Shown here piece by piece: positions 5,768 to 32,508 of a stretch of 34,421 nt of DNA. Every line of letters begins with the position of its first letter. Position 1 is the first letter of the stretch. Under the pieces are notes generated by a model. That model was given only the letters and a program-made list of their open reading frames with translations. It made no database searches and was not told the DNA's origin. A program made the position numbers and the translations under genes. Source of the stretch: an uncultured Clostridia bacterium (GTDB taxonomy: Bacteria > Bacillota > Clostridia > Oscillospirales > Oscillospiraceae); NCBI GenBank assembly GCA_946547105.1, contig CAMNOV010000015.1:1-34421 (forward strand). The letters are read 5' to 3'.

Positions 5768-6824
5768 AGCGGAAGTCTGGCTGGAAAAGATCCGCGCGCT
5801 GCCGCGGATGGACGTGAAGCTGATGGAGGTCTGCGGCACCCACACGATGTCGATCGCCCGGGCGGGGATCAAATCCCTGCTGCCGGAGGGCGTGGAACTG
5901 CTGAGCGGCCCCGGCTGCCCGGTCTGCGTGACCCCGGCCGCCGCCATCGACGCGGTGCTCGCCCTCGCCTCCGAGCCCGGCGTGATCGTGACGAGCTACG
6001 GCGACATGCTGCGCGTGCCGGGCAGCCGCCCGGGCGACAGCCTGGCCCGCCGCCGCGCCCTGGGCGCGCAGGTGGCGCTGGTCTACTCGCCGGTCGACGC
6101 GGTGGAGATCGCGCGGCAGAACCCGAAGAAAGAAGTCGTGTTCCTCGGCGTCGGCTTTGAGACCACCGCCCCCGGCACCGCCGCCGCCGTGCTGACAGCG
6201 CGGGAGCGGGGCGTGACGAACTTCTCGGTCTGGTCGATGCTCAAAACGGTGGAGCCCGCGCTGCGTGCGCTGCTGCGGCAGGAGGACTTTGCGGTGCAGG
6301 GCTTCCTCTGCCCCGGCCATGTGGCCACGATCATCGGCGCGGAGGCCTTCCGCTTCCTGCCGGAGGAATACGGCATTCCCGCCGTCGTGGGCGGCTTTGA
6401 GCCGGAGGAGATCCTGCATGCGCTCTATCTGCTGCTGCGGCAGCTCGCGGAAGGAAAGCCGCGGCTGGAAAACGCCTATCCGCGTGCGGTGAGCGCCGCG
6501 GGCAACCGCCTGGCGCAGCGCGTGATGGCGGAATGCTTCAAGCCCCGGCGCGATCTGTGGCGCGGCCTCGGGGCAATCGAAGGGAGCGGCCTCGGCTGGC
6601 GGGAGGATTTTTCTGCTTTCGACGCGGAGAAAAAGTTCGATCTTGCTGTCGAAAACACGGAAGGCCCGGCGGGCTGCCGCTGCGGCGACGTGATCTGCGG
6701 CCGCTGCCGCCCGGCGGACTGCCCGATGTTCGGCAGACGCTGCACACCGGAGGATCCGGTCGGACCCTGCATGGTGTCCTCGGAGGGCGCCTGCGCGGCG
6801 GCATATAAATATCAAACGGTGTAA
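5757..6824 (+). CDS. hypD: [NiFe] hydrogenase maturation protein HypD
   Basis: HypD is the iron-sulfur scaffold on which HypC and HypE assemble the Fe(CN)2CO centre. Diagnostic motifs are MEVCGTHT (Cys26) and GPGCPVCVTP (Cys54, Cys57). A C-terminal Cys-rich [4Fe-4S] region (CRCGDVICGRCRPADCP, then C in GRRC and GPC) is also present. The chosen ATG at 5757 lies 11 bases inside hypC with GGGAGGAAG just upstream. The same frame stays open back to 5691, but that extension falls inside hypC and has no HypD-like residues. The 355-residue length is normal. Confidence 0.96.
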   Translation: MPSEAEVWLEKIRALPRMDVKLMEVCGTHTMSIARAGIKSLLPEGVELLSGPGCPVCVTPAAAIDAVLALASEPGVIVTSYGDMLRVPGSRPGDSLARRRALGAQVALVYSPVDAVEIARQNPKKEVVFLGVGFETTAPGTAAAVLTARERGVTNFSVWSMLKTVEPALRALLRQEDFAVQGFLCPGHVATIIGAEAFRFLPEEYGIPAVVGGFEPEEILHALYLLLRQLAEGKPRLENAYPRAVSAAGNRLAQRVMAECFKPRRDLWRGLGAIEGSGLGWREDFSAFDAEKKFDLAVENTEGPAGCRCGDVICGRCRPADCPMFGRRCTPEDPVGPCMVSSEGACAAAYKYQTV

Positions 6825-6825
6825 T

Positions 6826-7824
6826 ATGGACGAAATCATTACGCTTGACTATGGCAGCGGCGGCAAAAAGACCGCCCGCCTGATCGAAAACAGCATCCTG
6901 CCCGCGCTGGACAATCCCGCGCTGCGGGCCTTGAACGACGGCGCCGTGATCCCCGGCGCGGAGCAGCTGGTCTTCTCCACCGACAGCTTCGTGGTCGACC
7001 CGGTCTTTTTCCCGGGCGGGGACATCGGCAAGCTCGCCGTCTGCGGCACGGTCAACGACATCGCGATGTGCGGCGGCGTGCCGAAATATCTCAGCTGCGC
7101 GCTGATCCTGGAAGAGGGCTTCCCGATGCGCGACCTGGAGCGCGTGCTGGATTCCATGAAACAGGCCTCGCAGAAGGCCGGCGTGCAGGTCGTGACCGGC
7201 GACACCAAGGTGGTCGAGCGCGGCCGCGGCGACAAGATTTATATCAACACCGCCGGCATCGGCTTTCTGAAATATCCCGGCCTGGAGCCCGCGGCCATCC
7301 GCCCCGGCGACAAGGTGCTGGTCTCCGGCACGGTCGGCGACCACGGCACGGCCGTGATGCTGGCCCGCAGCGGCATGATGCAGGGCGAGCTTCGCTCCGA
7401 CTGCGCGGCCCTGAACGGCCTGGCGGAGAAGATCCTCTCGAGCGGCGCGAAGGTGCGCGTGCTGCGTGATCCGACGCGCGGCGGCGCGGCGACGACCCTG
7501 TGCGAGTTCGTGGAGGGCGGCGCCCTGGGCATTGAGCTGGAGGAGGCGCAGATCCCCGTGCGCGGCGAAGTCAAGGCCGCCTGCGAGCTGCTGGGCCTCG
7601 ATCCGCTCTACTGCGCCAACGAGGGCAAGCTCCTGTGCGTGGTCGCGCCCGAGGACGCGGAGACCGCGCTCGCCGCGATGCGCGCCTGTCCGGAGGGCGA
7701 AAACGCCGCCGTCATCGGCACCGTGACGGAAAACTACCCCGGCAAGGTGACGCTGCGCACGCCGCTCGGCGGCCGGCGGATCCTGCAGAAGCTCAGCGGC
7801 GCACAGCTGCCGAGGATCTGCTGA
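6826..7824 (+). CDS. hypE: [NiFe] hydrogenase maturation protein HypE
   Basis: HypE dehydrates the carbamoyl group on its C-terminal cysteine to a thiocyanate that donates the CN ligands. The 332-residue sequence shows the PurM/AIR-synthase-like fold: LDYGSGGKKT at the N-terminus, STDSFVVDP, a D-T-K-VV segment around residue 125, and RDPTRGG. It ends in PRIC, the required C-terminal Cys. The ATG begins one base after the hypD stop with little Shine-Dalgarno sequence, suggesting coupling to hypD. It is the last gene of the first hyp block; 95 bases separate it from the hydrogenase genes. Confidence 0.96.
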   Translation: MDEIITLDYGSGGKKTARLIENSILPALDNPALRALNDGAVIPGAEQLVFSTDSFVVDPVFFPGGDIGKLAVCGTVNDIAMCGGVPKYLSCALILEEGFPMRDLERVLDSMKQASQKAGVQVVTGDTKVVERGRGDKIYINTAGIGFLKYPGLEPAAIRPGDKVLVSGTVGDHGTAVMLARSGMMQGELRSDCAALNGLAEKILSSGAKVRVLRDPTRGGAATTLCEFVEGGALGIELEEAQIPVRGEVKAACELLGLDPLYCANEGKLLCVVAPEDAETALAAMRACPEGENAAVIGTVTENYPGKVTLRTPLGGRRILQKLSGAQLPRIC

Positions 7825-7875: not shown

Positions 7876-7919
7876 AATAAATAGCAAGAGTATAAAATGT
7901 CAATAGAGAGGTGAAAGGA

Positions 7920-8321
7920 ATGCAGGAGAACAAGGTAACGCAAATCACCCGGGACGAGATCGTCCCCCTGGCCGAGCGCATGAAGAAGGCCGGACGTTAT
8001 CTCGTCATGATCCATGGCTGGCTGGACAAGGATGGACAGCCGGTGGTCAGCTGGGACTACTCCGTGCCGCCCGCCGTTGAGTGCTATCGCGTCGTCGGTG
8101 AGACGAAGCTGCCCTCGATCGGGGAGATCTACGACACGGCGGCCAGCTGGCCCGAGCGCGAGCTCAACGAGCTGTTCGGCATCGAGTTCGAGGGGCTTGA
8201 CATGTCCAAGCGGCTGTTTCTGCCGGAGGATATGCTGGAGACCCAGGGAAAGGGCCAGATCATGGTCACGCCCCTGAGCGAACTCGTGGACAACATGAAG
8301 AAAGTCAAGGAGGAGGAATGA
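7920..8321 (+). CDS. mbhK: Energy-converting hydrogenase NuoC-like subunit (MbhK/EchD-like)
   Basis: This 133-residue protein belongs to the complex I 30-kDa/NuoC family and forms part of the peripheral arm that joins the large subunit to the rest of the complex. The signature is WPERELNELFGIEFEGL around residues 75-91, the NuoC core motif (W-x-E-R-E-x-x-D/N-x-F/L-G). A GTG nine bases upstream (7911) is in frame, but it is embedded in the Shine-Dalgarno AGAGGTGA (7907-7914). The ATG at 7920 is therefore the likely start. It is the first gene of the hydrogenase cluster proper, immediately before the large subunit (GGAGGAATGAG spans the junction). Confidence 0.9.
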   Translation: MQENKVTQITRDEIVPLAERMKKAGRYLVMIHGWLDKDGQPVVSWDYSVPPAVECYRVVGETKLPSIGEIYDTAASWPERELNELFGIEFEGLDMSKRLFLPEDMLETQGKGQIMVTPLSELVDNMKKVKEEE

Positions 8322-8322
8322 G

Positions 8323-9405
8323 ATGAGCTATATCGTTCCGATCGGCCCTTACCATCCCGCTTTGGAGGAGCCGATCCACGCAAAGCTGATCACGGAGGGC
8401 GAGGTCATCAAGGACGCGGAGGTCTTCGTCGGCTATAACCACCGCGGCATCGAGAAGCTGGCCACCGAGCGCAACTGCATCCAGACCCTGGTACTGGTCG
8501 AGCGCGTGTGCGGCATCTGCTCGCACTCCCACGCCTTTACCTACGCCATGTGCGTGGAGGACATCAACGGCATCCAGGTGCCCAAGCGCGGCGACTATAT
8601 CCGCGTCATCACCGCGGAGCTGGAGCGTCTCCACTCTCACTTCCTCTGGATGGGCATCGCCTGCCACATCATCGGCCATGACAGCATGTTCATGCACATC
8701 TGGGACGAGCGCGAGCTCGTGATGGATCTGCTCGAGCGCATGACCGGCAACCGCGTCAACTACGCGATGGTCACGATCGGCGGCTCCCGCCGCGACATCG
8801 ACGACGATCTGCGCCGCGATCTGCTGGCCGCCATGGACAAGCTGAAGGCGCCGCTCGACCGCATCGTGGACATCGTCCTTAACGACCGCACCATCGCCAT
8901 GCGCACCAAGGGCGTCGGCGTGCTGACCAGAGAGGACGCGCTGCGTATGGGCGCTGTCGGCCCGCACGCGAGAGCCTCCGGTGTCGATATCGACGTGCGC
9001 CGCGATTCCCCCTACTCCGCCTACGGCGACTTTGAGTTCAACGTGCCCGTCTGCTCCAATGGCGACGTGTTCGACCGCGTGGTCGTCCGCGCGCTCGAGT
9101 GCTATGAGAGCATCAAGATCATCCGCCAGGCGCTGGAGAATCTGCCCGAAGGTCCGATCAACCTCGGCAACAAGCTGGTGAAGATCAAGGAAGGCGTGTC
9201 CGTGAAGATGCACGAGGCCCCGCGCGGCCAGCTCAGTCATATGGTCGTCGGCGACGGCAGCTTCAACAACCACCGCATCAGCGTGCACGTGCCCTCTTAC
9301 AAGAACACCCCCACCGTGCCGCACATGCTGCGGGGCAACACCGTGGCCGACGCCGGCCTTATCATCGCCAGCATCGACCCCTGCTTCAGCTGCCTCGACC
9401 GCTGA
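8323..9405 (+). CDS. mbhL: Membrane-bound [NiFe] hydrogenase large (catalytic) subunit, group 4
   Basis: This subunit holds the NiFe centre where protons are reduced to H2. The 360-residue product has both Ni-binding motifs: RVCGICSHSH (Cys63, Cys66) and DPCFSCLDR (Cys354, Cys357), with all four ligating cysteines. This separates it from Nuo, Mbs and Mbx relatives that have lost them. The protein ends at the Arg of the second motif, so it lacks the C-terminal extension that maturation proteases normally remove, as in some Ech-type enzymes. It is shorter than respiratory large subunits, as expected for group 4. The stop codon overlaps the hypA start by one base. Electrons should arrive through MbhJ and MbhN. 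Confidence 0.95.
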   Translation: MSYIVPIGPYHPALEEPIHAKLITEGEVIKDAEVFVGYNHRGIEKLATERNCIQTLVLVERVCGICSHSHAFTYAMCVEDINGIQVPKRGDYIRVITAELERLHSHFLWMGIACHIIGHDSMFMHIWDERELVMDLLERMTGNRVNYAMVTIGGSRRDIDDDLRRDLLAAMDKLKAPLDRIVDIVLNDRTIAMRTKGVGVLTREDALRMGAVGPHARASGVDIDVRRDSPYSAYGDFEFNVPVCSNGDVFDRVVVRALECYESIKIIRQALENLPEGPINLGNKLVKIKEGVSVKMHEAPRGQLSHMVVGDGSFNNHRISVHVPSYKNTPTVPHMLRGNTVADAGLIIASIDPCFSCLDR

Positions 9406-9746
9406 TGCACGAACTGTCCATTGCCCGCAGCATCATCGCGATCGTGGAACAGGCGGCGAAGGACGAGGGCTTTGAGCGGGTGCTGGAGATCCGCCTGAAA
9501 ATGGGCGAGTTTTCCGGCCTCGTGCCCGAGTGCCTGCGCGAGTTTTTCCCGATCGCGGCGAAGGATACGCCCGCCGAGGGCGCGAAGCTCGTCATGGAAA
9601 CGGTCCCGGCCGCCTTCCGCTGTCTCGACTGCGGCTATGAGGGCCCGGCCGACCGGAAAAACGCCTGCTGCCCCCGCTGCCGCGGCACCGCTCTGCGCAT
9701 GACGCAGGGACGCGAATTCTATGTGGAAGATCTGAAAGTCGAATAA
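9405..9746 (+). CDS. hypA: Hydrogenase nickel incorporation protein HypA
   Basis: HypA delivers nickel to the hydrogenase large subunit, normally with the GTPase HypB. The 113 residues start MHELSI (His2 and the N-terminal amine bind nickel). They contain a structural zinc site of two CxxC motifs: Cys73/Cys76, and Cys88 or Cys89/Cys92. The gene is wedged inside the hydrogenase cluster directly after the large subunit (TGATG overlap), away from hypFCDE, consistent with nickel insertion into MbhL as it is made. No hypB is present in this window. A repeat element follows before the next hydrogenase gene. Confidence 0.96.
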   Translation: MHELSIARSIIAIVEQAAKDEGFERVLEIRLKMGEFSGLVPECLREFFPIAAKDTPAEGAKLVMETVPAAFRCLDCGYEGPADRKNACCPRCRGTALRMTQGREFYVEDLKVE

Positions 9747-9924: not shown

Positions 9925-10443
9925 TTGCGAAAGACAAAAGCTCCGGCCGTCATCGCCACCTTTGTCGTCTGCTTCCTCTTCTGGCTGCTGCTGACCTGGT
10001 CGGTCAAGCCCCAGGAGCTGATCGCCGGCGCCGTGGTGAGTCTGGCGGCGGCCCTGTTCTCCGCGCGCTTCTTCATCCATGAAAAAGCGTTCTGGTTTGC
10101 CAACCCCGCCAAGCTGTTCACCGGCCTGTTTTACTGGGTCTGCGTGTTCCCCTGCGAGCTGATCAAGGCCAACCTGCACATGGCAAAAGTGGTGCTGGGC
10201 GGCTGTAAGGTCAAGCCCGGCATCGTGAAGATCCCCTCGAGCCTGGAGAGCGACTACGGCCGCGCGGCTCTGGCCAACTCCATCACCCTGACCCCCGGCA
10301 CCATCACCATGGAGATCGTCGAGGAAGAGGGCAAGCCCTGGTACTACGTCCACTGGATCGAGGCCGAGTCCGACGGTGAAGAGGCCGGCGAGGCCATCAA
10401 GGGCCGGATGGAAAAATGGATCAGGAGGTTCTGGGAGAAATGA
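9925..10443 (+). CDS. mbhA: Mrp/Mnh antiporter subunit E-like protein of hydrogenase (MbhA)
   Basis: This 172-residue membrane protein of the MrpE/MnhE family belongs to the ion-translocating arm of the hydrogenase. Two hydrophobic segments near the N-terminus (about residues 8-48) are followed by a third around 65-80. The family-typical cytoplasmic part then contains the conserved SLESDYGRAALANSITLTPGT segment and a short WYYVHWIE strand. The start is TTG, with a good AAGGAGAT eight bases upstream. A nearby ATG at 9914 is out of frame. It is the first gene of the membrane block and overlaps mbhB by four bases. Confidence 0.92.
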   Translation: MRKTKAPAVIATFVVCFLFWLLLTWSVKPQELIAGAVVSLAAALFSARFFIHEKAFWFANPAKLFTGLFYWVCVFPCELIKANLHMAKVVLGGCKVKPGIVKIPSSLESDYGRAALANSITLTPGTITMEIVEEEGKPWYYVHWIEAESDGEEAGEAIKGRMEKWIRRFWEK

Positions 10444-10703
10444 AAACTGATCTGATCGTATTTGCCGTGCTCTTCGGGGCGCTGGCAGCCGTGGCGATGA
10501 TCCGCCTGATCAAGGGTCCCACCGGCGCCGACCGCATGGTCGCCGGCGACGTGGCCGACACCCTGATCTGCTGCGCGATGATCCTCTTCGCTCTTTACAG
10601 CGGCAGAGGCATCTACCTGGACATCGCCATCATCGGCGCCATGCTCGGTATCGTCGATACCATGCTGGTCGGCCGGTTCCTGGAAAAAGGAGGGAAGAAG
10701 TAA
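10440..10703 (+). CDS. mbhB: Mrp/Mnh antiporter subunit F-like protein (MbhB)
   Basis: This 87-residue protein with three predicted membrane helices belongs to the MrpF/MnhF family and is a small structural subunit of the Mrp-like ion module. The conserved RLIKGPTGADRMVAGDV loop after helix 1 is diagnostic. The frame is open from 10416, but the ATG at 10440 overlaps the mbhA stop (ATGA), has GGGAGA just upstream, and gives the usual family length. The stop overlaps the mbhC ATG by one base. Confidence 0.93.
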   Translation: MKTDLIVFAVLFGALAAVAMIRLIKGPTGADRMVAGDVADTLICCAMILFALYSGRGIYLDIAIIGAMLGIVDTMLVGRFLEKGGKK

Positions 10704-11050
10704 TGCTGATGTGGATCAAAATAATCAGCGACGTGCTGATCGCCTGCGGCGCCTTCTTCGCTCTGGTCGGCGTGCTCGGCATCCTCCGCATGCCCGACAC
10801 CTTCTGCCGCATGCAGGCGAGCACCTGTGTGTCGACCCTCGGCGTGCTCGGCGTTGCGCTCGGCGGCCTGCTTCACGCGATCTTCGTTATGAACAGCGCT
10901 TCCACCGCGGTGAAGATCGCCGTGATCTGCCTGCTGATCCTCGTCACGAACCCCGTCGGCTCGCACGCCATCGCCAAGGGCGCCTACAAGGCGGGCATCC
11001 GTCCCGAGACGCCCATGGAAACAGATGATCTGGGGAGGGACAGCGAATGA
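10703..11050 (+). CDS. mbhC: Mrp/Mnh antiporter subunit G-like protein (MbhC)
   Basis: The 115-residue product has three hydrophobic segments and the MrpG/MnhG signature GVLGILRMPDTFCRMQAST, followed by the conserved TNPVGSHAIAKGAY segment near the C-terminus. It should pack with subunits E and F in the Mrp-derived arm. Overlaps of one base with mbhB and four with mbhD show tight operon structure. Confidence 0.93.
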   Translation: MLMWIKIISDVLIACGAFFALVGVLGILRMPDTFCRMQASTCVSTLGVLGVALGGLLHAIFVMNSASTAVKIAVICLLILVTNPVGSHAIAKGAYKAGIRPETPMETDDLGRDSE

Positions 11051-11301
11051 GCACCTGGATAGTCATTTTGAACGCGCTGATTCTGATCGGCCTGATCGTG
11101 TCCGCGATCCTGGCCTCCGTATCGGAAAAGCTGCTGTCGTCCGTCATCGCGCTGAGCGTGACCGGCATCTTCGCCGCGGCGGAGTTCCTGCTGCTGCACG
11201 CGCCCGACGTTGCCATCTCCGAGGCCGCCGTCGGCGCCGCGCTCGCTCCGATGATCTTCATCGTCACCCTGAGAAAGCTGAAAGGGGGCGGCGATAAATG
11301 A
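11047..11301 (+). CDS. mbhD: MbhD-like subunit (DUF4040; equivalent to part of the MrpA C-terminal region)
   Basis: The 84-residue protein is almost entirely hydrophobic, with three predicted helices. It matches the DUF4040/MbhD family, which corresponds to a section of the C-terminal region of MrpA in antiporters. The segment LLHAPDVAISEAAVGAALAP is the family hallmark, with an acidic pair (D, E) in a membrane-embedded stretch that may take part in ion transfer. It overlaps both neighbours by four bases. A full-length MrpA is absent, as in archaeal Mbh complexes. Confidence 0.9.
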   Translation: MSTWIVILNALILIGLIVSAILASVSEKLLSSVIALSVTGIFAAAEFLLLHAPDVAISEAAVGAALAPMIFIVTLRKLKGGGDK

Positions 11302-11663
11302 AAAAGTTTCTGACCTGGGTCTGCCTGGGGCTGATCCTCTTTGCCGGCGTGTTCGACAGCGTCAACCTCAACGACATGCCCCGCACCTACAGCGGCCAGA
11401 AGGCGCCGGTCCCGGTTTACGAGCTGTGGCAGGATCCCGAGAGCGCCGATGAGGAAGCTCCCGTGGACGGCGCTGCCGCCGCCATCGTGAACCAGAACCT
11501 GAAGAACACCCATGCCGTCAACGATGTGACCTCGATCGTCTTTGACTTCCGTGGCTATGATACCATGGGCGAGGCCTTCATCCTGATCACTGCCGTGGCC
11601 GGCACGATGGTCATCCTCTTCAACAAGAAAGAAGACAAGAAGAAGGAGGATGAGCAGGCATGA
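11298..11663 (+). CDS. mbhE: MbhE-like hydrogenase subunit
   Basis: The 121-residue protein has one N-terminal membrane segment (residues 4-20), an exported or loop region of about 60 residues, and a C-terminal helix (about 90-110) ending in a Lys/Glu-rich tail. The stretch NDVTSIVFDFRGYDTMGEA followed by a helix is the conserved core shared by MbhE and the end of MrpA. It lies between MbhD and MbhF, as in Pyrococcus mbh operons, and overlaps both by four bases. Assignment rests on motif and order. Confidence 0.87.
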   Translation: MKKFLTWVCLGLILFAGVFDSVNLNDMPRTYSGQKAPVPVYELWQDPESADEEAPVDGAAAAIVNQNLKNTHAVNDVTSIVFDFRGYDTMGEAFILITAVAGTMVILFNKKEDKKKEDEQA

Positions 11664-12127
11664 AAAACGGCATTACCGTGAAAAACGTGATCCAGCCCTG
11701 CGGCGTGGACACGATCCTGCCCCTGGCGATGGTCTACATCTGCTATATCATTCTCCATGGGCACCTGTCTCCCGGCGGTGGTTTCCAGGGCGGCGTTCTG
11801 GTCGCTGCGGTGATCGTGCTGCTGGCGCTGGCCTACGGCTATGAGACCGCGGCGGGCACCATCAGCTTCGGCCTGGTGCACCACGGCGAGGGCCTGGCCT
11901 CTGTGTGCTATGTGGCGCTGGCCTTCATGGGCGCGGCTGTCGGCGCGCAGTTCTGCCAGAACATTCTCTACACCCACGGCGCCATCGGCGACCTTTACAG
12001 CTCCGGCACGATCTTCTGGATGAACGTGACCGTCGGCGTCAAGGTCTTCACCGGCATCAGCTCGGTGTGCCTGCTGATGCTCGGCGTCCTGCGGGACATT
12101 GACGAGAAAGAGAGGGACTGCAAATGA
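11660..12127 (+). CDS. mbhF: Mrp/Mnh antiporter subunit B-like protein (MbhF)
   Basis: This 155-residue MrpB/MnhB family membrane protein has four hydrophobic segments. The motif GHLSPGGGFQGGVL at about residues 34-47 is the family signature, and VGVKVFTGISS near the C-terminus also matches. It is part of the ion-translocating arm. The four-base overlap with mbhG indicates coupling. Confidence 0.93.
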   Translation: MKNGITVKNVIQPCGVDTILPLAMVYICYIILHGHLSPGGGFQGGVLVAAVIVLLALAYGYETAAGTISFGLVHHGEGLASVCYVALAFMGAAVGAQFCQNILYTHGAIGDLYSSGTIFWMNVTVGVKVFTGISSVCLLMLGVLRDIDEKERDCK

Positions 12128-12474
12128 TTCTGATGAACTACATAGCCGCCTTCTTCCTCATCGTTCTCGGCCTGTACACGATCGTCACCAAGTATAACCT
12201 GGTCAAAACGGTCATCGGCCTGAGCATCATGGACTACGGCGTGAACCTCCTGATCGTCTCGATCGGCTTCAATCCCGGCGGCACCGCGCCGATCTTCACC
12301 TTCTCGGAGCTCAACCCCTCGAGCTTCTTTGTCGATCCCATCCCCCAGGCGCTCACGCTGACGAGCATCGTCATCGGCGCCTGCGTCACCGCCATGTCCC
12401 TGTCGCTTGTGATGAAGATCTATGAGCAGTACGGGACGATGGACACCCGTGAGGTAAGGAGGCTGAGAGGATAA
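12124..12474 (+). CDS. mbhG: Mrp/Mnh antiporter subunit C-like protein (MbhG, NuoK family)
   Basis: The 116 residues form three hydrophobic helices with the MrpC/NuoK arrangement: LGLYTIVTKYNLVKTVIGL in helices 1-2, and DPIPQALTLTSIVIGA before helix 3. The latter is the most conserved MrpC motif. It should sit beside MbhH in the membrane. A one-base overlap joins it to mbhH. Confidence 0.94.
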   Translation: MILMNYIAAFFLIVLGLYTIVTKYNLVKTVIGLSIMDYGVNLLIVSIGFNPGGTAPIFTFSELNPSSFFVDPIPQALTLTSIVIGACVTAMSLSLVMKIYEQYGTMDTREVRRLRG

Positions 12475-14375
12475 TGAGTATGCTTTCTTATCAGCATTTC
12501 CCGATCTACGCGATCATGCTCTATTTCCTCGGCGCGTTCCTGATCGTCCTCTTCGGGAAGAACAAGATCGCCCGCCACTGCCTGGCGCTGCTGAGCGTCA
12601 CCGGCTCTCTGGCGCTGCTGGTCTCCCTCGTGCCCCGCGTGATGACGGGCGGCGAGATCATCACCTACTGGATGGGCAACCGCGCCTATTCCGGCGGCTA
12701 TGCCATCGGCATCGCGCTGGAGGTCGACGCGCTGAGCCTGTTCTTCGCGCTGCTGGTCGCGGTCGCGGTCTTCGTCTCCGGCGTCTACTCCATCCGCTAC
12801 ATGGAGCATGACGACAACATCCCCCAGTATTACACCCTGTTCCTGATGCTCGCCGGCGGCGTGATGGGCCTCGTGCTCTCGGGTGACCTGTTCAACATGT
12901 TCATCATGGTGGAGATCCTCACCTTCGCCGCGGTGGCGCTGACGGCCTTCCGCAATACCGCCCGCGGCGCGCTGGAGGCGGCCTTCAAGTACCTCGTGGT
13001 CGGCTCCATCGGCTCGACCTGCATCCTGGCCGGCACCATCATGCTCTATGCCCAGGTGCACACGCTGAACTTTGCCCAGCTGAGCGGTCTGATCCCCGGC
13101 CACATCCACGGCGCGACCCGCGTGGCCTTCGCGCTGCTGTTCGTGGGCTTCAGCACCAAGGCCTTCCTGGTGCCCTTCCATCCGCTGGCGGCGGACGCGC
13201 ACGGCGCGGCTCCCGCCTCCGTCTCGGTGCTGATCTCGGGCGTTCTCACCAAGTCCGGTATCTACGGCATCATCCGTCTGGTCTACTTCCTGTTCCAGAC
13301 CATGAACCTCCGCCCGATCCAGTTCATGCTGGTCTTCGTCGGCAGCGTGAGCATGTTCGTCTGCGTTACGATGGCGCTGGCGCAGCATGACTTCAAGCGT
13401 CTGCTGGCCTTCCACAGCATCTCCCAGATCGGCTACGTGCTCACGGCGGTCGGCCTGTCCACCGCGCTGGGCATCTCCGCCGGCCTCTACCACGCGATGA
13501 ACCACACCATCTTCAAGGGCCTGCTGTTCCTTGCTGCCGGCGCCGTGCTGCACGAGACCGGCACCACCGACCTGGATCGCCTCGGCGGTCTTTCGAAGCG
13601 CATGCCCCATACGACGGTGCTGTTCCTGATCGGCGCCGCCTCCATCAGCGGCATCCCGCCCTTCAACGGTTTTGCCAGCAAGTGGCTGATCTACCAGGCC
13701 GCTTACCTGCGCGCCGTGGAAACCGGCAACATCGGCTACCTGCTCGTCACGATCATCGCGCTTGTCACCAGCACCCTGACCCTGGCCTCCTTCGTCAAGG
13801 TCAGCCAGTCTGTCTTCTTCGGCCAGCTGCCCGATGAATTCAAGGATGTCAAGGAAGTGCCCTTCGGCATGCGCCTGGCGATGAGCCTGTTCGCCATCCT
13901 CTGCGTGCTGACCGGTCTGCTGCCCGACCTCGTCACGAAGGTCCTCACGGGCCCCGCGGCCCAGGCCGTGCTCAACCCGGTGCGCTACATCGCCGCTGCC
14001 CGCGGCATCGAAGTCCCCGCCGAGACCGCCGCGCTGCCGCAGGCTGCCGGCGCCTGGAGCCCGATCAACTGGCTCCTGCTGCTGGGCATCTCGCTCTTCG
14101 CCATCACGCTGGTCGCCCTGCTCGGCAAGTACGACCGTGTCAGCGAGAACGCCTCCGCCGAGACCCTCCCCGCCAAATACGACCTCTTCTTCAGCGGTGA
14201 AAAGAGCGTCTACTCCCAGGTCGGCGGCGGAGACCTCTTCTGGGGCTTCAAGTACAACTGGCGGCATTATTTCAGCTTCATGCATGATCTTCACAGCGGC
14301 ATCGTCAACGACTATGCCCTGTGGGCGGTGGTAGCGCTGGCGCTGGCCATCGCGTTCCTGCAGATCGTTCTTTAA
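12474..14375 (+). CDS. mbhH: Proton-conducting antiporter-like subunit (MbhH, MrpD/NuoN family) with C-terminal extension
   Basis: This is the large antiporter-like subunit that should carry the H+ (or Na+) channel, with about 14 membrane helices. The family core includes GLVLSGDLFNMFIMVEI (around residues 130-146, with the key Glu), STKAFLVPFHPLAADAHGAAP (about 225-245, with the broken-helix Lys) and the NHTIFKGLLFLAAGAV block. At 633 residues it exceeds the roughly 490-510 usual for MrpD/NuoN. The extra C-terminal part from about residue 520 has one membrane helix, a polar stretch ending in FMHDLHSGIVNDYALW, and a final helix. No separate mbhI gene exists here, so this tail may be a fused MbhI-type lateral helix; this is inference. 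Confidence 0.93.
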   Translation: MSMLSYQHFPIYAIMLYFLGAFLIVLFGKNKIARHCLALLSVTGSLALLVSLVPRVMTGGEIITYWMGNRAYSGGYAIGIALEVDALSLFFALLVAVAVFVSGVYSIRYMEHDDNIPQYYTLFLMLAGGVMGLVLSGDLFNMFIMVEILTFAAVALTAFRNTARGALEAAFKYLVVGSIGSTCILAGTIMLYAQVHTLNFAQLSGLIPGHIHGATRVAFALLFVGFSTKAFLVPFHPLAADAHGAAPASVSVLISGVLTKSGIYGIIRLVYFLFQTMNLRPIQFMLVFVGSVSMFVCVTMALAQHDFKRLLAFHSISQIGYVLTAVGLSTALGISAGLYHAMNHTIFKGLLFLAAGAVLHETGTTDLDRLGGLSKRMPHTTVLFLIGAASISGIPPFNGFASKWLIYQAAYLRAVETGNIGYLLVTIIALVTSTLTLASFVKVSQSVFFGQLPDEFKDVKEVPFGMRLAMSLFAILCVLTGLLPDLVTKVLTGPAAQAVLNPVRYIAAARGIEVPAETAALPQAAGAWSPINWLLLLGISLFAITLVALLGKYDRVSENASAETLPAKYDLFFSGEKSVYSQVGGGDLFWGFKYNWRHYFSFMHDLHSGIVNDYALWAVVALALAIAFLQIVL

Positions 14376-15443: not shown

Positions 15444-15887
15444 ATGTTTAAGAAACTGATCGAAGAGAGCACCGGCAAGTCCCCGTGGCTGTTCCACATC
15501 AACGCCGGCTCCTGCAACGGCTGCGACATCGAGCTCGTGTCCGTGCTCACCCCGCGCTATGACGCGGAGCGCCTCGGCTTCAAGCTGTCCGGCACGCCCC
15601 GCCACGCCGACATCGTCGTCGTCACGGGTCCTGTCACCCAGCAGTCGCTGGCCCGCGTGCTGCGCACCATCGAGCAGGTCCCCGAACCGCGCTGCATCGT
15701 CACCATGGGCTCCTGCCCGCAGAGCGGCAACGTCTTCCGCGGCAGCTACGCCATCGCCGGCCCCCTGTCCAAGTACGTCCATGTGGACGTGGACGTCGCC
15801 GGCTGCACGCCCAAGCCCGAAGCCGTCATCGACGGCCTGGTCAAGGCCACCGAGATCCTGCGTGAGAAGAGGAGGGCGATGAAGTAA
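15444..15887 (+). CDS. mbhJ: Membrane-bound [NiFe] hydrogenase small subunit (MbhJ/EchC/NuoB family)
   Basis: The 147-residue small subunit holds the proximal [4Fe-4S] cluster next to the NiFe site. Ligands are visible as CNGCDIE (Cys24, Cys27), MGSC (Cys91) and AGCTPKPE (Cys121). It lacks the Tat signal and extra clusters of respiratory hydrogenases, as expected for group 4. The frame is open from 15288, but the ATG at 15444 is preceded by GAGGAGG and gives the family length. The stop overlaps the mbhN ATG by one base, so the two Fe-S subunits should be made together. Confidence 0.95.
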   Translation: MFKKLIEESTGKSPWLFHINAGSCNGCDIELVSVLTPRYDAERLGFKLSGTPRHADIVVVTGPVTQQSLARVLRTIEQVPEPRCIVTMGSCPQSGNVFRGSYAIAGPLSKYVHVDVDVAGCTPKPEAVIDGLVKATEILREKRRAMK

Positions 15888-17116
15888 TGGATTTCCCCTT
15901 TGTCAAAGAAGCGCTGAGCTCTCTGTTCAAAAAGAGCAGCTGTGACATGTATCCGATCAAGCCGAGCGAAGCCGCCCCCAACTACCGCGGCCGCATCGTC
16001 TTCCATCCGGACAAGTGCATCAACTGTATGATGTGCGAGCGCGTCTGCTCCGGCAGCGCCATCACCCACACCAGCGAGCAGACTCCCGAGGGCGAGCTCA
16101 TCACCCGCACCTTCTACCTCGGCTCCTGCACCTTCTGCGCGACCTGCATGGACTTCTGCGGCCACGGCGCCATCGAGTTCACGCGCGATTACCACATGAT
16201 CGCCACGAAGGAAGAGGATCTGATGGTCTCCGGTACCTTCCTCAAGAAGCCCCCGGTGAAGAAGCCGAAGCCGGCCGCGCCCGCCGCCCCGAAGGCGGAG
16301 GCCAAGCCCGTCACTCCCGCTGCTGCCGCCGGCACGGTCATCAAGCCCCGCGACGACGGCAAGCCCGTCCAGGTGCCTTCCAAGTGCGTCTACTGCACGA
16401 TCTGCGCGAAGAAGTGCCCGGCCGGTGCGCTGGAGGTCGACCGCGCGGCCAAGACCTGGACGCTCAACGAGGACGAGTGCGTGGCCTGCGGCACCTGCGC
16501 CGAAGCCTGCCCGAAGAAGGCCATCCTGATGCCGGGCGACGAGCCCGTCACCGTGGAGGCCGCCGCGCCCGCCGCCCCGAAGGCGGAGACCAAGCCCGCC
16601 GCTCCCGCTGCTGCAGCCGGAACCGTGATCAAGCCGCGTGATGACGGCAAGCCCGTCCAGGTGCCTTCCAAGTGCGTCTACTGCACGATCTGCGCGAAGA
16701 AGTGCCCGGCCGGTGCGCTGGAGGTCGACCGCGCGGCCAAGACCTGGACGCTCAACGAGGACGAGTGCGTGGCCTGCGGCACCTGCGCCGAAGCCTGCCC
16801 GAAGAAGGCCATCCTGATGCCGGGCGACGAGCCCGTCACCGAAGGAGCCGCCGCGCCCGCCGCTCCGAAGGCGGAGACCAAACCTGCCGCCCCGAAGGCC
16901 GAGGAAAAGCCAGTCGAGCCGCCCAAGCCGCGCGACGACGGCCGTCCGGTCCAGGATCCTTCCAAGTGTGTCTACTGCACGATCTGCGCCAAAAAGTGCC
17001 CCGTCGGGGCGCTGGAGGTCGACCGCGCGGCCAAGACCTGGAAGCTGGACGAGGATCTCTGCATCGGCTGCGGCAACTGCGCCCTCGTCTGCCCGAAGCA
17101 GGCCATCCTCTACTGA
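15887..17116 (+). CDS. mbhN: Polyferredoxin subunit of the hydrogenase (MbhN/EchF-like, eight predicted [4Fe-4S] clusters)
   Basis: Residues 1-120 are an ordinary MbhN/NuoI-type subunit with two cluster motifs (Cys44/47/50/54 and Cys81/84/87/91). After it come Ala/Pro/Lys-rich linkers and three two-cluster ferredoxin modules whose first motifs start at Cys167, Cys263 and Cys361. Each reads CVYCTICAKKC, with a second CxxCxxCxxxC motif 31 residues on. The total is eight predicted [4Fe-4S] clusters in 409 residues, against two in the Pyrococcus subunit. Modules 1 and 2 repeat every 96 residues and are identical at the DNA level over 192 bases. The likely role is to accept electrons from reduced ferredoxin and pass them to MbhJ, with the added modules acting as a tethered relay or store. 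It is the last gene of the cluster. Confidence 0.92.
   Translation: MDFPFVKEALSSLFKKSSCDMYPIKPSEAAPNYRGRIVFHPDKCINCMMCERVCSGSAITHTSEQTPEGELITRTFYLGSCTFCATCMDFCGHGAIEFTRDYHMIATKEEDLMVSGTFLKKPPVKKPKPAAPAAPKAEAKPVTPAAAAGTVIKPRDDGKPVQVPSKCVYCTICAKKCPAGALEVDRAAKTWTLNEDECVACGTCAEACPKKAILMPGDEPVTVEAAAPAAPKAETKPAAPAAAAGTVIKPRDDGKPVQVPSKCVYCTICAKKCPAGALEVDRAAKTWTLNEDECVACGTCAEACPKKAILMPGDEPVTEGAAAPAAPKAETKPAAPKAEEKPVEPPKPRDDGRPVQDPSKCVYCTICAKKCPVGALEVDRAAKTWKLDEDLCIGCGNCALVCPKQAILY
16361..16840 (+). repeat. Internal tandem repeat in mbhN (288-base period)
   Basis: Bases 16361-16552 are identical to 16649-16840 (192 bases), a 288-base period encoding ferredoxin modules 1 and 2. A third, diverged module follows at about 16943-17113, offset by 294 bases. 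Linkers between modules differ in sequence but keep the PAAPKAE-type composition. Confidence 0.9.
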
Positions 17117-17135
17117 TTATCCAATGATATCCAAT

Positions 17136-17170
17136 CACCGCCCGTCGAAACCGACGGGCGGTGAATTGTT
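17136..17170 (+). terminator. Hydrogenase operon terminator
   Basis: Perfect 12-bp GC-rich stem CACCGCCCGTCG (17136-17147), loop AAAC, CGACGGGCGGTG (17152-17163), then AATTGTTT. The T run is short but the stem is strong. Confidence 0.75.
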
Positions 17171-31725: not shown

Positions 31726-32508
31726 TCAGTCGATGTGGATGATCTTCTGCGTCAGATCGGCGGCAGAGACCGTGGGATTCGGGAAGCGTTCGCGCTTCTC
31801 GGTGATCTTGCCGACGTTGATGGCCTGCTTCGGGCAGTACTGCACGCAGCTCAGGCAGCCGATGCAGTTCTTGCCGAAGCTGGGCTTGCCGCCGACGAGC
31901 TGGATGTTGTTGCGCGGGCAGATCTTTACGCAGCTGCCGCAGCCGATGCACTTGTCGTTGGCCTTGAAGTTTTTGATGTTTTTGGCGTTGATGCCGGAAA
32001 AGCCCTTGCTTTCGAGCGCGAACACCGCATTTTTGGGCGGCTTTTTCTCGCTGCGCTTCATCGCGCGCACCGCGCCGCCGACCTCCAGCGCCTTGCGGTC
32101 GATCCGCTCCTGGGCGGTCTTTTTGGACGTGGGCGGGATGGTGAGCCGGTGGGGCATCAGCCAGATGCAGGTGGAGTGGTTGCTGATCGTGTTCCAGTAG
32201 TCGAGGCCCACGATCTCGTCGATCTTGTGCAGGCCGCAGCCCATGTAGCCGGCGAACTGCTCCACGGCGAACTTGTAGGCGCCCGGCGCGATCTTGATCG
32301 CCTTGACGTAATCCTCCACGTCGCCGGGCAGGCCGCCGCCATAGCAGGGGAACACAAAGCCCACGCGCTTGGCTTCGGTGGCGTCCGTCTTCGCGGGGTA
32401 GCTGCGCATCATGACGATGTCGGTATCACCCAGGACCTGGGCGATGCTTTTGGCCATGTTCAGGCAATGGCCGGAGCCGGAATAACAGTAGATGATGTTT
32501 TCGGACAT
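31726..32508 (-). CDS. EFR1 family ferredoxin-flavodoxin protein
   Basis: The 260-residue protein joins an N-terminal flavodoxin-like domain (YCYSGSGHCLNMAKSIAQ, the FMN phosphate loop; FPCYGGGLPGDV) to a C-terminal two-cluster ferredoxin. Cluster motifs are CIGCGSCVKICP and CIGCLSCVQYCP (about residues 188-228). This is the EFR1 (EF-type flavodoxin-ferredoxin) arrangement found in anaerobic Firmicutes, probably an intracellular electron carrier. AAGGGAGAG precedes the ATG. It is the last of four minus-strand genes here, separated from the DUF1295 gene by its own promoter and a terminator. Confidence 0.9.
   Translation of the reverse strand: MSENIIYCYSGSGHCLNMAKSIAQVLGDTDIVMMRSYPAKTDATEAKRVGFVFPCYGGGLPGDVEDYVKAIKIAPGAYKFAVEQFAGYMGCGLHKIDEIVGLDYWNTISNHSTCIWLMPHRLTIPPTSKKTAQERIDRKALEVGGAVRAMKRSEKKPPKNAVFALESKGFSGINAKNIKNFKANDKCIGCGSCVKICPRNNIQLVGGKPSFGKNCIGCLSCVQYCPKQAINVGKITEKRERFPNPTVSAADLTQKIIHID

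Follow-up and report, generated by a model that had tools for sequence, protein, structure and literature searches.

The gene at positions 15887-17116 of the 34,421-nucleotide stretch of DNA analyzed here (hereafter the window), from a rumen-type gut bacterium of the Clostridia, is the last gene of an operon encoding an Mbh-type group 4 [NiFe] hydrogenase. The following genes and features were found on the plus strand.

6826..7824, + strand: HypE maturase (TIGR02124 over cut-off)
7911..8321, + strand: MbhK-like subunit (Complex1_30kDa)
8323..9405, + strand: MbhL-like [NiFe] large subunit with both CxxC pairs (RVCGIC, DPCFSC); best match 6cfw_L
9405..9746, + strand: HypA
9925..12127, + strand: whole Mrp-type antiporter module, MrpE to MrpB (next six lines)
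9925-10443, + strand: MrpE (MNHE over cut-off)
10416-10703, + strand: MrpF (over cut-off)
10703-11050, + strand: MrpG (over cut-off)
11047-11301, + strand: MbhD (over cut-off)
11298-11663, + strand: MbhE (under its Pfam cut-off)
11660-12127, + strand: MrpB (MnhB over cut-off)
12124..12474, + strand: MrpC/NuoK-like subunit (over cut-off)
12474..14375, + strand: MbhH-like ion-pump subunit, 633 aa
14380..15432, + strand: MbhM/NuoH-like subunit
15444..15887, + strand: MbhJ-like small subunit
15887..17116, + strand: mbhN-like gene, one open frame of 409 aa with eight predicted [4Fe-4S] clusters
17135..17164, + strand: strong terminator-like stem 3' of the mbhN-like gene, 13 pairs, 10 of them G-C

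The best solved relative of each of MbhL, MbhJ, MbhH and MbhM is the MBH of Pyrococcus furiosus (PDB 6cfw), which bears out the Mbh-type assignment made in a preliminary description of this DNA. The CxxC pairs for Ni binding, the MbhJ subunit with the MbhM/MbhH membrane arm and the Mrp-antiporter module (with MbhE under its cut-off) are all present, while the usual MbhN with two [4Fe-4S] clusters is replaced by a subunit with eight motifs. Taking two clusters as usual and not as required, the complex is of the Mbh type with a variant MbhN. Four such cysteines of MbhL bind Ni according to the section of the source on this subunit (PMC11228991). MbhL stops right after DPCFSCLDR, so that there is seemingly no C-terminal peptide to cleave during maturation. 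MbhH has 633 residues compared with 510 in P. furiosus, being 123 residues longer than 6cfw_H, and the match stops at residue 511 of 633. No separate MbhI gene was identified in the window operon, and the extra C-terminal part of MbhH may be a fused MbhI. The location of the stem directly after the mbhN-like gene suggests that the operon probably ends there; over the whole window, two terminator-like sites were found compared with 1.7 expected by shuffling.

Anatomy of the enlarged ferredoxin subunit

Translation of the mbhN-like gene placed 32 of the 33 cysteines of the protein in eight complete CxxCxxCxxxC motifs. In 2,000 residue shuffles of the 409-aa sequence, the mean number of motifs was 0.019 and the maximum two; a chance origin of the eight motifs was thus rejected. 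Pfam detected four two-cluster Fer4_7 stretches and seven Fer4 stretches. These results agree exactly, in number and coordinates, with the motifs reported in the preliminary description. The gene can be divided as follows.

15887..16246, + strand: module 1 (residues 1-120), MbhN/HycF/NuoI-like electron-entry module; two motifs (Cys44-54, Cys81-91), fourth Cys without a following Pro
16247..16330, + strand: linker 1, Ala/Pro/Lys rich, predicted to be disordered (pLDDT under 50 at about residues 124-148)
16340..16534, + strand: module 2, ferredoxin-like; two motifs spaced 31 (Cys167-177, Cys198-208)
16628..16822, + strand: module 3, identical in protein sequence to module 2 (Cys263-273, Cys294-304)
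16922..17113, + strand: module 4, terminal (Cys361-371, Cys392-402)
16269..16556, + strand: DNA repeat copy 1, 288 nt, 95% identical to copy 2
16557..16844, + strand: DNA repeat copy 2, 288 nt

For module 1 (residues 1-118), the NCBIfam NuoI and PRK08348 (MbhN-type) models ranked first, both under their curated cut-offs for a single piece, and the solved chains 7z0s_F (HycF) and 6cfw_N (MbhN) were matched. For modules 2 and 4, HycF-type, ferredoxin, EFR1 and PorD models ranked first, with no single piece above its curated cut-off; solved relatives of module 4 included FwdF, a 9sfi ferredoxin chain and MvhB. The subunit is built from an MbhN/NuoI-like module followed by three ferredoxin-like modules on Ala/Pro/Lys/Glu linkers. 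On the minus strand of 15887-17116, a frame is open over the same 410 codons, probably as a side effect of G+C-rich coding sequence.

Run twice, on different alignments, AlphaFold predicted four ferredoxin domains (pLDDT about 77-91). Values below 50 were obtained for the linkers, at about residues 124-148, 225-244 and 321-342, and for parts of residues 13-33. The pTM values of the two runs, 0.34 and 0.33, suggest beads on a string with no fixed arrangement of domains. A Foldseek search with the predicted fold returned FwdF first, then HycF and NuoI. Together with the linker composition (40% Ala, 22% Pro, 12% Lys and 11% Glu), both runs sustain the earlier proposal of three extra two-cluster modules on linkers predicted to be flexible.

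Modules 2 to 4 lie within a tandem DNA repeat at 16269-17109 with a period of 288. The first two copies differ at 14 of 288 nucleotides, 12 of them before and two after an identical tract of 199 bp at 16355-16553; seven of the 14 are synonymous and follow one another in a run between 16327 and 16354. Over 186 nt, module 3 of the window is 98.4% identical to module 2 of the window, whereas compared with three sister species it shares 83-84% identity with their module 3 and 91-92% with their module 2. Module 2 has therefore probably been copied recently over module 3 of the window, or into its place, although an assembly error may instead account for this one copy.

An identical tract of this kind raises the question of an assembly or frame artefact in this metagenome-assembled genome (MAG), as 199 bp exceeds common short-read length. 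Two other MAGs are broken, or end their contigs, at the module repeat (L102/L117 of RUG12056; L020/L081 with L105/L133), which indicates that the repeat does trouble assembly. Against an artefact, seven other distinct eight-motif proteins occur in the same genus, including seven named contigs from several MAG sets, closed homologues always contain two, four, six or eight motifs, and the internal modules of the three sister species differ from one another. We consider an artefact extremely unlikely. The preliminary description had proposed that close relatives without the modules would reveal a frameshift or assembly error; the same eight motifs were found in relatives from other assemblies, and such an origin of the enlargement as such was rejected. 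The least certain point is whether this particular genome has three modules or four. Assembly breaks caused by the repeat may also hide such genes in surveys.

Distribution and repeated origin of the extra modules

To compare module number across relatives, as the preliminary description had suggested, 76 distinct homologues were parsed from loci L001-L141, a few of them from other genera of the family. Named relatives are mostly rumen and gut MAGs labelled Ruminococcaceae, Oscillospiraceae, Eubacteriales, Clostridiales or Clostridia. The MbhJ gene was present at the same locus in all 76 cases and the MbhM gene in 73. Among the 72 closed homologues, six have two motifs, 49 have four, nine have six and eight have eight; none has an odd number. 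Of those left open at a contig end, two have two motifs, one has three and one has four. Several rows were dropped before this count: L041/L138, with two motifs, whose start pattern was missed; L023/L085, with four motifs, in which no start was recognised; the frame-broken L102/L117; the fragments L105/L133 and L134; L047; and loci of other proteins. Counted per genome, among 61 same-genus genomes including that of the window, eight motifs were found in six, six in six, four in 39 and two in three (one of these genes being cut by a contig end); two further genomes carry six or more motifs in repeat-broken pieces, and the gene was not found in five genomes that are 65-97% complete. The eight-motif state therefore recurs in relatives, and the occurrence of relatives with zero, one, two or three extra units suggests that the enlargement is real and evolved repeatedly. 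Since module number differs between related species, no particular number seems essential.

In other families of the phylum, 28 loci were retrieved (L142-L169), every one of them with two motifs; they come from a search with 45 matches, 15 of which were left unfetched, one of those in a 606-aa frame. Within this sample, the earlier view that two clusters are the norm is supported. Three two-motif relatives (L043, L046 and L124) already carry an Ala/Pro/Lys-rich tail with no module, and three four-motif proteins (L110, L114 and L115) have linkers of up to 135 residues with no module remnant visible by eye. These observations suggest an order of gain in which the linker came first, then one module and then tandem copies. 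A similar module fragment, divided between two frames and close to stops, was seen at 6001-6197 of locus L106 on a Myxococcales-labelled MAG contig, and is likely misbinned or a remnant.

The extra modules of the closed homologues look like soluble ferredoxin and differ in kind from module 1. Their two motifs are spaced by 31 residues in 91 of 91 cases, compared with 37-39 in all 72 first modules, and a Pro follows the fourth Cys in 180 of 182 extra motifs compared with none of the 144 motifs of module 1. A Pro at this position is typical of soluble clostridial ferredoxins. Every one of the 66 proteins measured has a linker before its first extra module, with a median length of 29 aa (range 16-135), and linkers between later modules have 26-57 residues.

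A main tree was built by a quick method from MbhJ, MbhM and the MbhN N-terminus (79 rows). The eight-motif proteins fell into two clades, one comprising the window, L006, L036 and L009 with the six-motif L077, the other L007, L008, L010 and L067 with the six-motif L073 and the broken L020. A single clade of eight-motif proteins was rejected (log-likelihood 181 lower, AU p 7.6e-79), as was one clade for all 17 six- and eight-motif rows (AU p 1.1e-40); the groups were named after the trees had been seen, for which the AU test does not allow. The trees indicate that the eight-motif state arose at least twice within the genus. In a tree of module DNA, modules 2 and 3 of the second clade grouped together (85/91), and module 3 of L006, L036 and L009 stood apart with L077 (89/95), in agreement, with moderate support, with a repeated origin.

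Enlarged subunits were also found beyond the family. In genus g403, which belongs to another family of the order, loci L170-L174 have eight, eight, six, at least seven (contig end) and eight motifs. The motifs of L170 are spaced more closely (37, 52, 31, 31, 31, 60, 31), and the g403 N subunit is perhaps a more compact arrangement. In a module tree of 54 columns, made with 54 chosen modules from 26 proteins, the 29 modules of the window's family (28 from genus g1 and one from g51) lay on one side of a branch, and those of g403 outside them (100/99). As to where the extra modules came from, this tree resolves neither the g403 nor the Ech-like modules, and one clade of the 11 g403 modules was not rejected (AU p 0.27). 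The Ech-like loci are so labelled from their gene order and from an MbhL-like neighbour of the ferredoxin subunit with 37-41% identity. Four of them have eight motifs (L049, L182, L187, L190), five have four (L053, L179, L180, L184, L188) and seven have two (L181, L183, L185, L186, L189, L191, L192). EchF-like subunits of the same order thus appear to have been enlarged likewise and independently.

These comparisons bear on whether the tail (modules 2 to 4) is a nearly neutral repeat expansion, like a coding minisatellite, in which unequal crossing over adds and removes modules with little functional effect. In its favour, at least 11 changes of motif number are required over 72 labelled rows of the main tree (13 on a tree of the N-terminus only), and module 3 of the window appears to have been overwritten by module 2. 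The motifs, however, are intact, enlarged subunits also occur in a second family and among Ech-like enzymes, and between species the pN/pS of modules 2, 3 and 4 is 0.18-0.27 in both clades. For comparison, module 1 gave 0.26 and 0.05 in the two clades, the 66 terminal modules 0.34, and paralogous modules within one protein 0.18-0.49, higher than orthologous ones. The extra modules thus appear to be under purifying selection; a purely neutral repeat is disfavoured by these ratios, and we regard it as very unlikely.

Possible function of the ferredoxin tail

The genome of the window (G000) is a 1.89-Mb assembly of 110 contigs, 85.6% complete. It contains five loci above the cut-off of PF17147 (PFOR_II); as this model also exceeds its cut-off in 12 of 14 control genomes, not every one of the five need reduce ferredoxin. 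An RnfB match over cut-off was found with its neighbours, as was a frame for a 56-aa two-cluster ferredoxin. With a free ferredoxin gene still present, the tail has not replaced free ferredoxin. Within the window, a 260-aa protein encoded at 31726-32508 on the minus strand has a ferredoxin-like domain near its C terminus and scores under the cut-off of the RnfB model. No match to an [FeFe] hydrogenase was found in this 85.6% complete assembly, and Mbh may be its sole hydrogenase.

Among the 61 same-genus genomes, 21, many of them incomplete, have no detectable [FeFe] hydrogenase. The match was absent from 12 of 14 genomes with six or more motifs and from 8 of 41 with fewer (Fisher p 1.8e-5). 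For these 55 rows, G002, G039 and the five genomes without the gene were left out and G064 was added; L020 was scored as six or more from two unjoined contig pieces, a weak match in G010 (E 5.5e-6) was scored as present, and loci were assigned to genomes by hand. In genomes at least 90% complete, absence in 4 of 6 compared with 4 of 18 was not significant (p 0.13), and correction for relatedness left 2-4 independent pairs on the tree, with no signal and no power. The link between many modules and an absent [FeFe] hydrogenase is a lead only, inseparable from shared ancestry.

We consider it fairly probable that modules 2 to 4 serve as captive ferredoxins, gathering electrons and delivering them to the MbhN module, in a relay role that we infer. 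Module 1 would keep the place of MbhN, next to MbhJ as in the P. furiosus MBH, and would hand electrons on towards the [NiFe] site. The tail modules would be ferredoxins unable to diffuse away, with ferredoxin oxidoreductases and free ferredoxin as likely donors, and the linkers would let each of them swing to module 1 and to outside partners. The tail could thereby raise the local concentration and capacity of the low-potential donor at this H2-making, ion-pumping enzyme, holding up to six further electrons beside an enzyme that uses two per H2. The gene and operon, the motifs, the predicted folds and linkers, selection and repeated evolution are established here, whereas we infer that the clusters are occupied, that electrons flow in this direction, that partners are contacted and that the enzyme benefits. 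Points against this reading are the free ferredoxin gene that remains, the variable module number and the higher pN/pS of paralogous modules.

The same anatomy, and a motif number that climbs in twos, would also suit an electron buffer that mainly stores up to six extra electrons, with no specific docking of partners. Buffering would free two-electron proton reduction from the limit of one-electron ferredoxin collisions. We regard it as unlikely: a buffer has no obvious need for long flexible linkers, which precede the first extra module in every protein measured. The tail could instead be a docking scaffold, each module binding a different ferredoxin oxidoreductase to form a channelled supercomplex as in other polyferredoxins. 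The five PF17147 loci of this genome would provide candidate partners, and the closest solved structures to the tail include two polyferredoxins, FwdF and MvhB. The identity of modules 2 and 3 in the window favours added capacity over one partner per module, and no partner gene was seen within the operon, which makes such a scaffold rather improbable.

The captive-ferredoxin tail can be compared with known systems. HycF of Escherichia coli formate hydrogenlyase (7z0s_F) resembles module 1, being the best single-subunit sequence match and scoring high by fold, but has 180 residues compared with 409 in the window protein; its electron donor is formate dehydrogenase, unlike that of the window enzyme. 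Two of the three clusters of the P. furiosus MbhN-MbhJ pair sit in MbhN. Module 1 aligns to residues 4-108 of this MbhN (6cfw_N, 139 aa), to which the window subunit adds three two-cluster modules at the C terminus. The count of three clusters for MbhN and MbhJ together is given in the passage of the source on these subunits (PMC11228991).

According to the sections of PMC3087415 that treat them, the methanogen polyferredoxins EhaP, EhaQ, EhbK, MvhB and FwdF contain 6, 10, 14, 12 and 8 clusters, respectively. Like the window subunit, they are multi-cluster proteins whose genes accompany those of redox enzymes and of hydrogenases, energy-converting or other; unlike it, each has a coding sequence of its own and is not joined to a hydrogenase's electron-entry subunit (PMC3087415, same sections). 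The window subunit has the tandem two-cluster modules of MvhB, FwdF and EhbK and, being fused to the MbhN module in one frame, is not stand-alone; we do not class it as a polyferredoxin, though it may work like one. As outlined in the relevant part of PMC4320612, Ech1 and Ech2 of Thermoanaerobacter kivui are also ferredoxin-linked energy-converting hydrogenases with an extra iron-sulfur protein, but EchF has two predicted clusters, and the four-cluster HycB is encoded separately. CarE of Acetobacterium woodii, in the portion of PMC5861303 describing it, similarly joins a ferredoxin-like domain, a possible adaptor, to a redox enzyme; this is a single N-terminal domain in another enzyme family. 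Among the matches listed from the open-licence literature, considered by title and beginning of abstract, none described a fused, length-variable ferredoxin chain on MbhN or EchF. Within that sample, such a chain on the electron-entry subunit would be new, and separate polyferredoxins beside energy-converting hydrogenases are known.

Taken more widely, Mbh- and Ech-like hydrogenases of gut Clostridia may repeatedly have evolved a length-variable chain of captive ferredoxins, in which gene conversion and unequal crossing over shift the number of modules. The chain would serve as a tunable electron antenna, of most consequence where the enzyme is the sole hydrogenase; we put this forward tentatively, as possible rather than probable. 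The succession of linker, one module and tandem copies also suggests a possible route to polyferredoxins. Similar hydrogenases with one to four ferredoxin modules form a natural series in which one could test directly whether electron delivery is accelerated or buffered by tethered iron-sulfur domains, and such tethering is a design idea also wanted in bio-hydrogen engineering. Ferredoxin-driven H2 in the gut and rumen feeds methanogens, and the tail may set how the enzyme collects electrons for this hydrogen.
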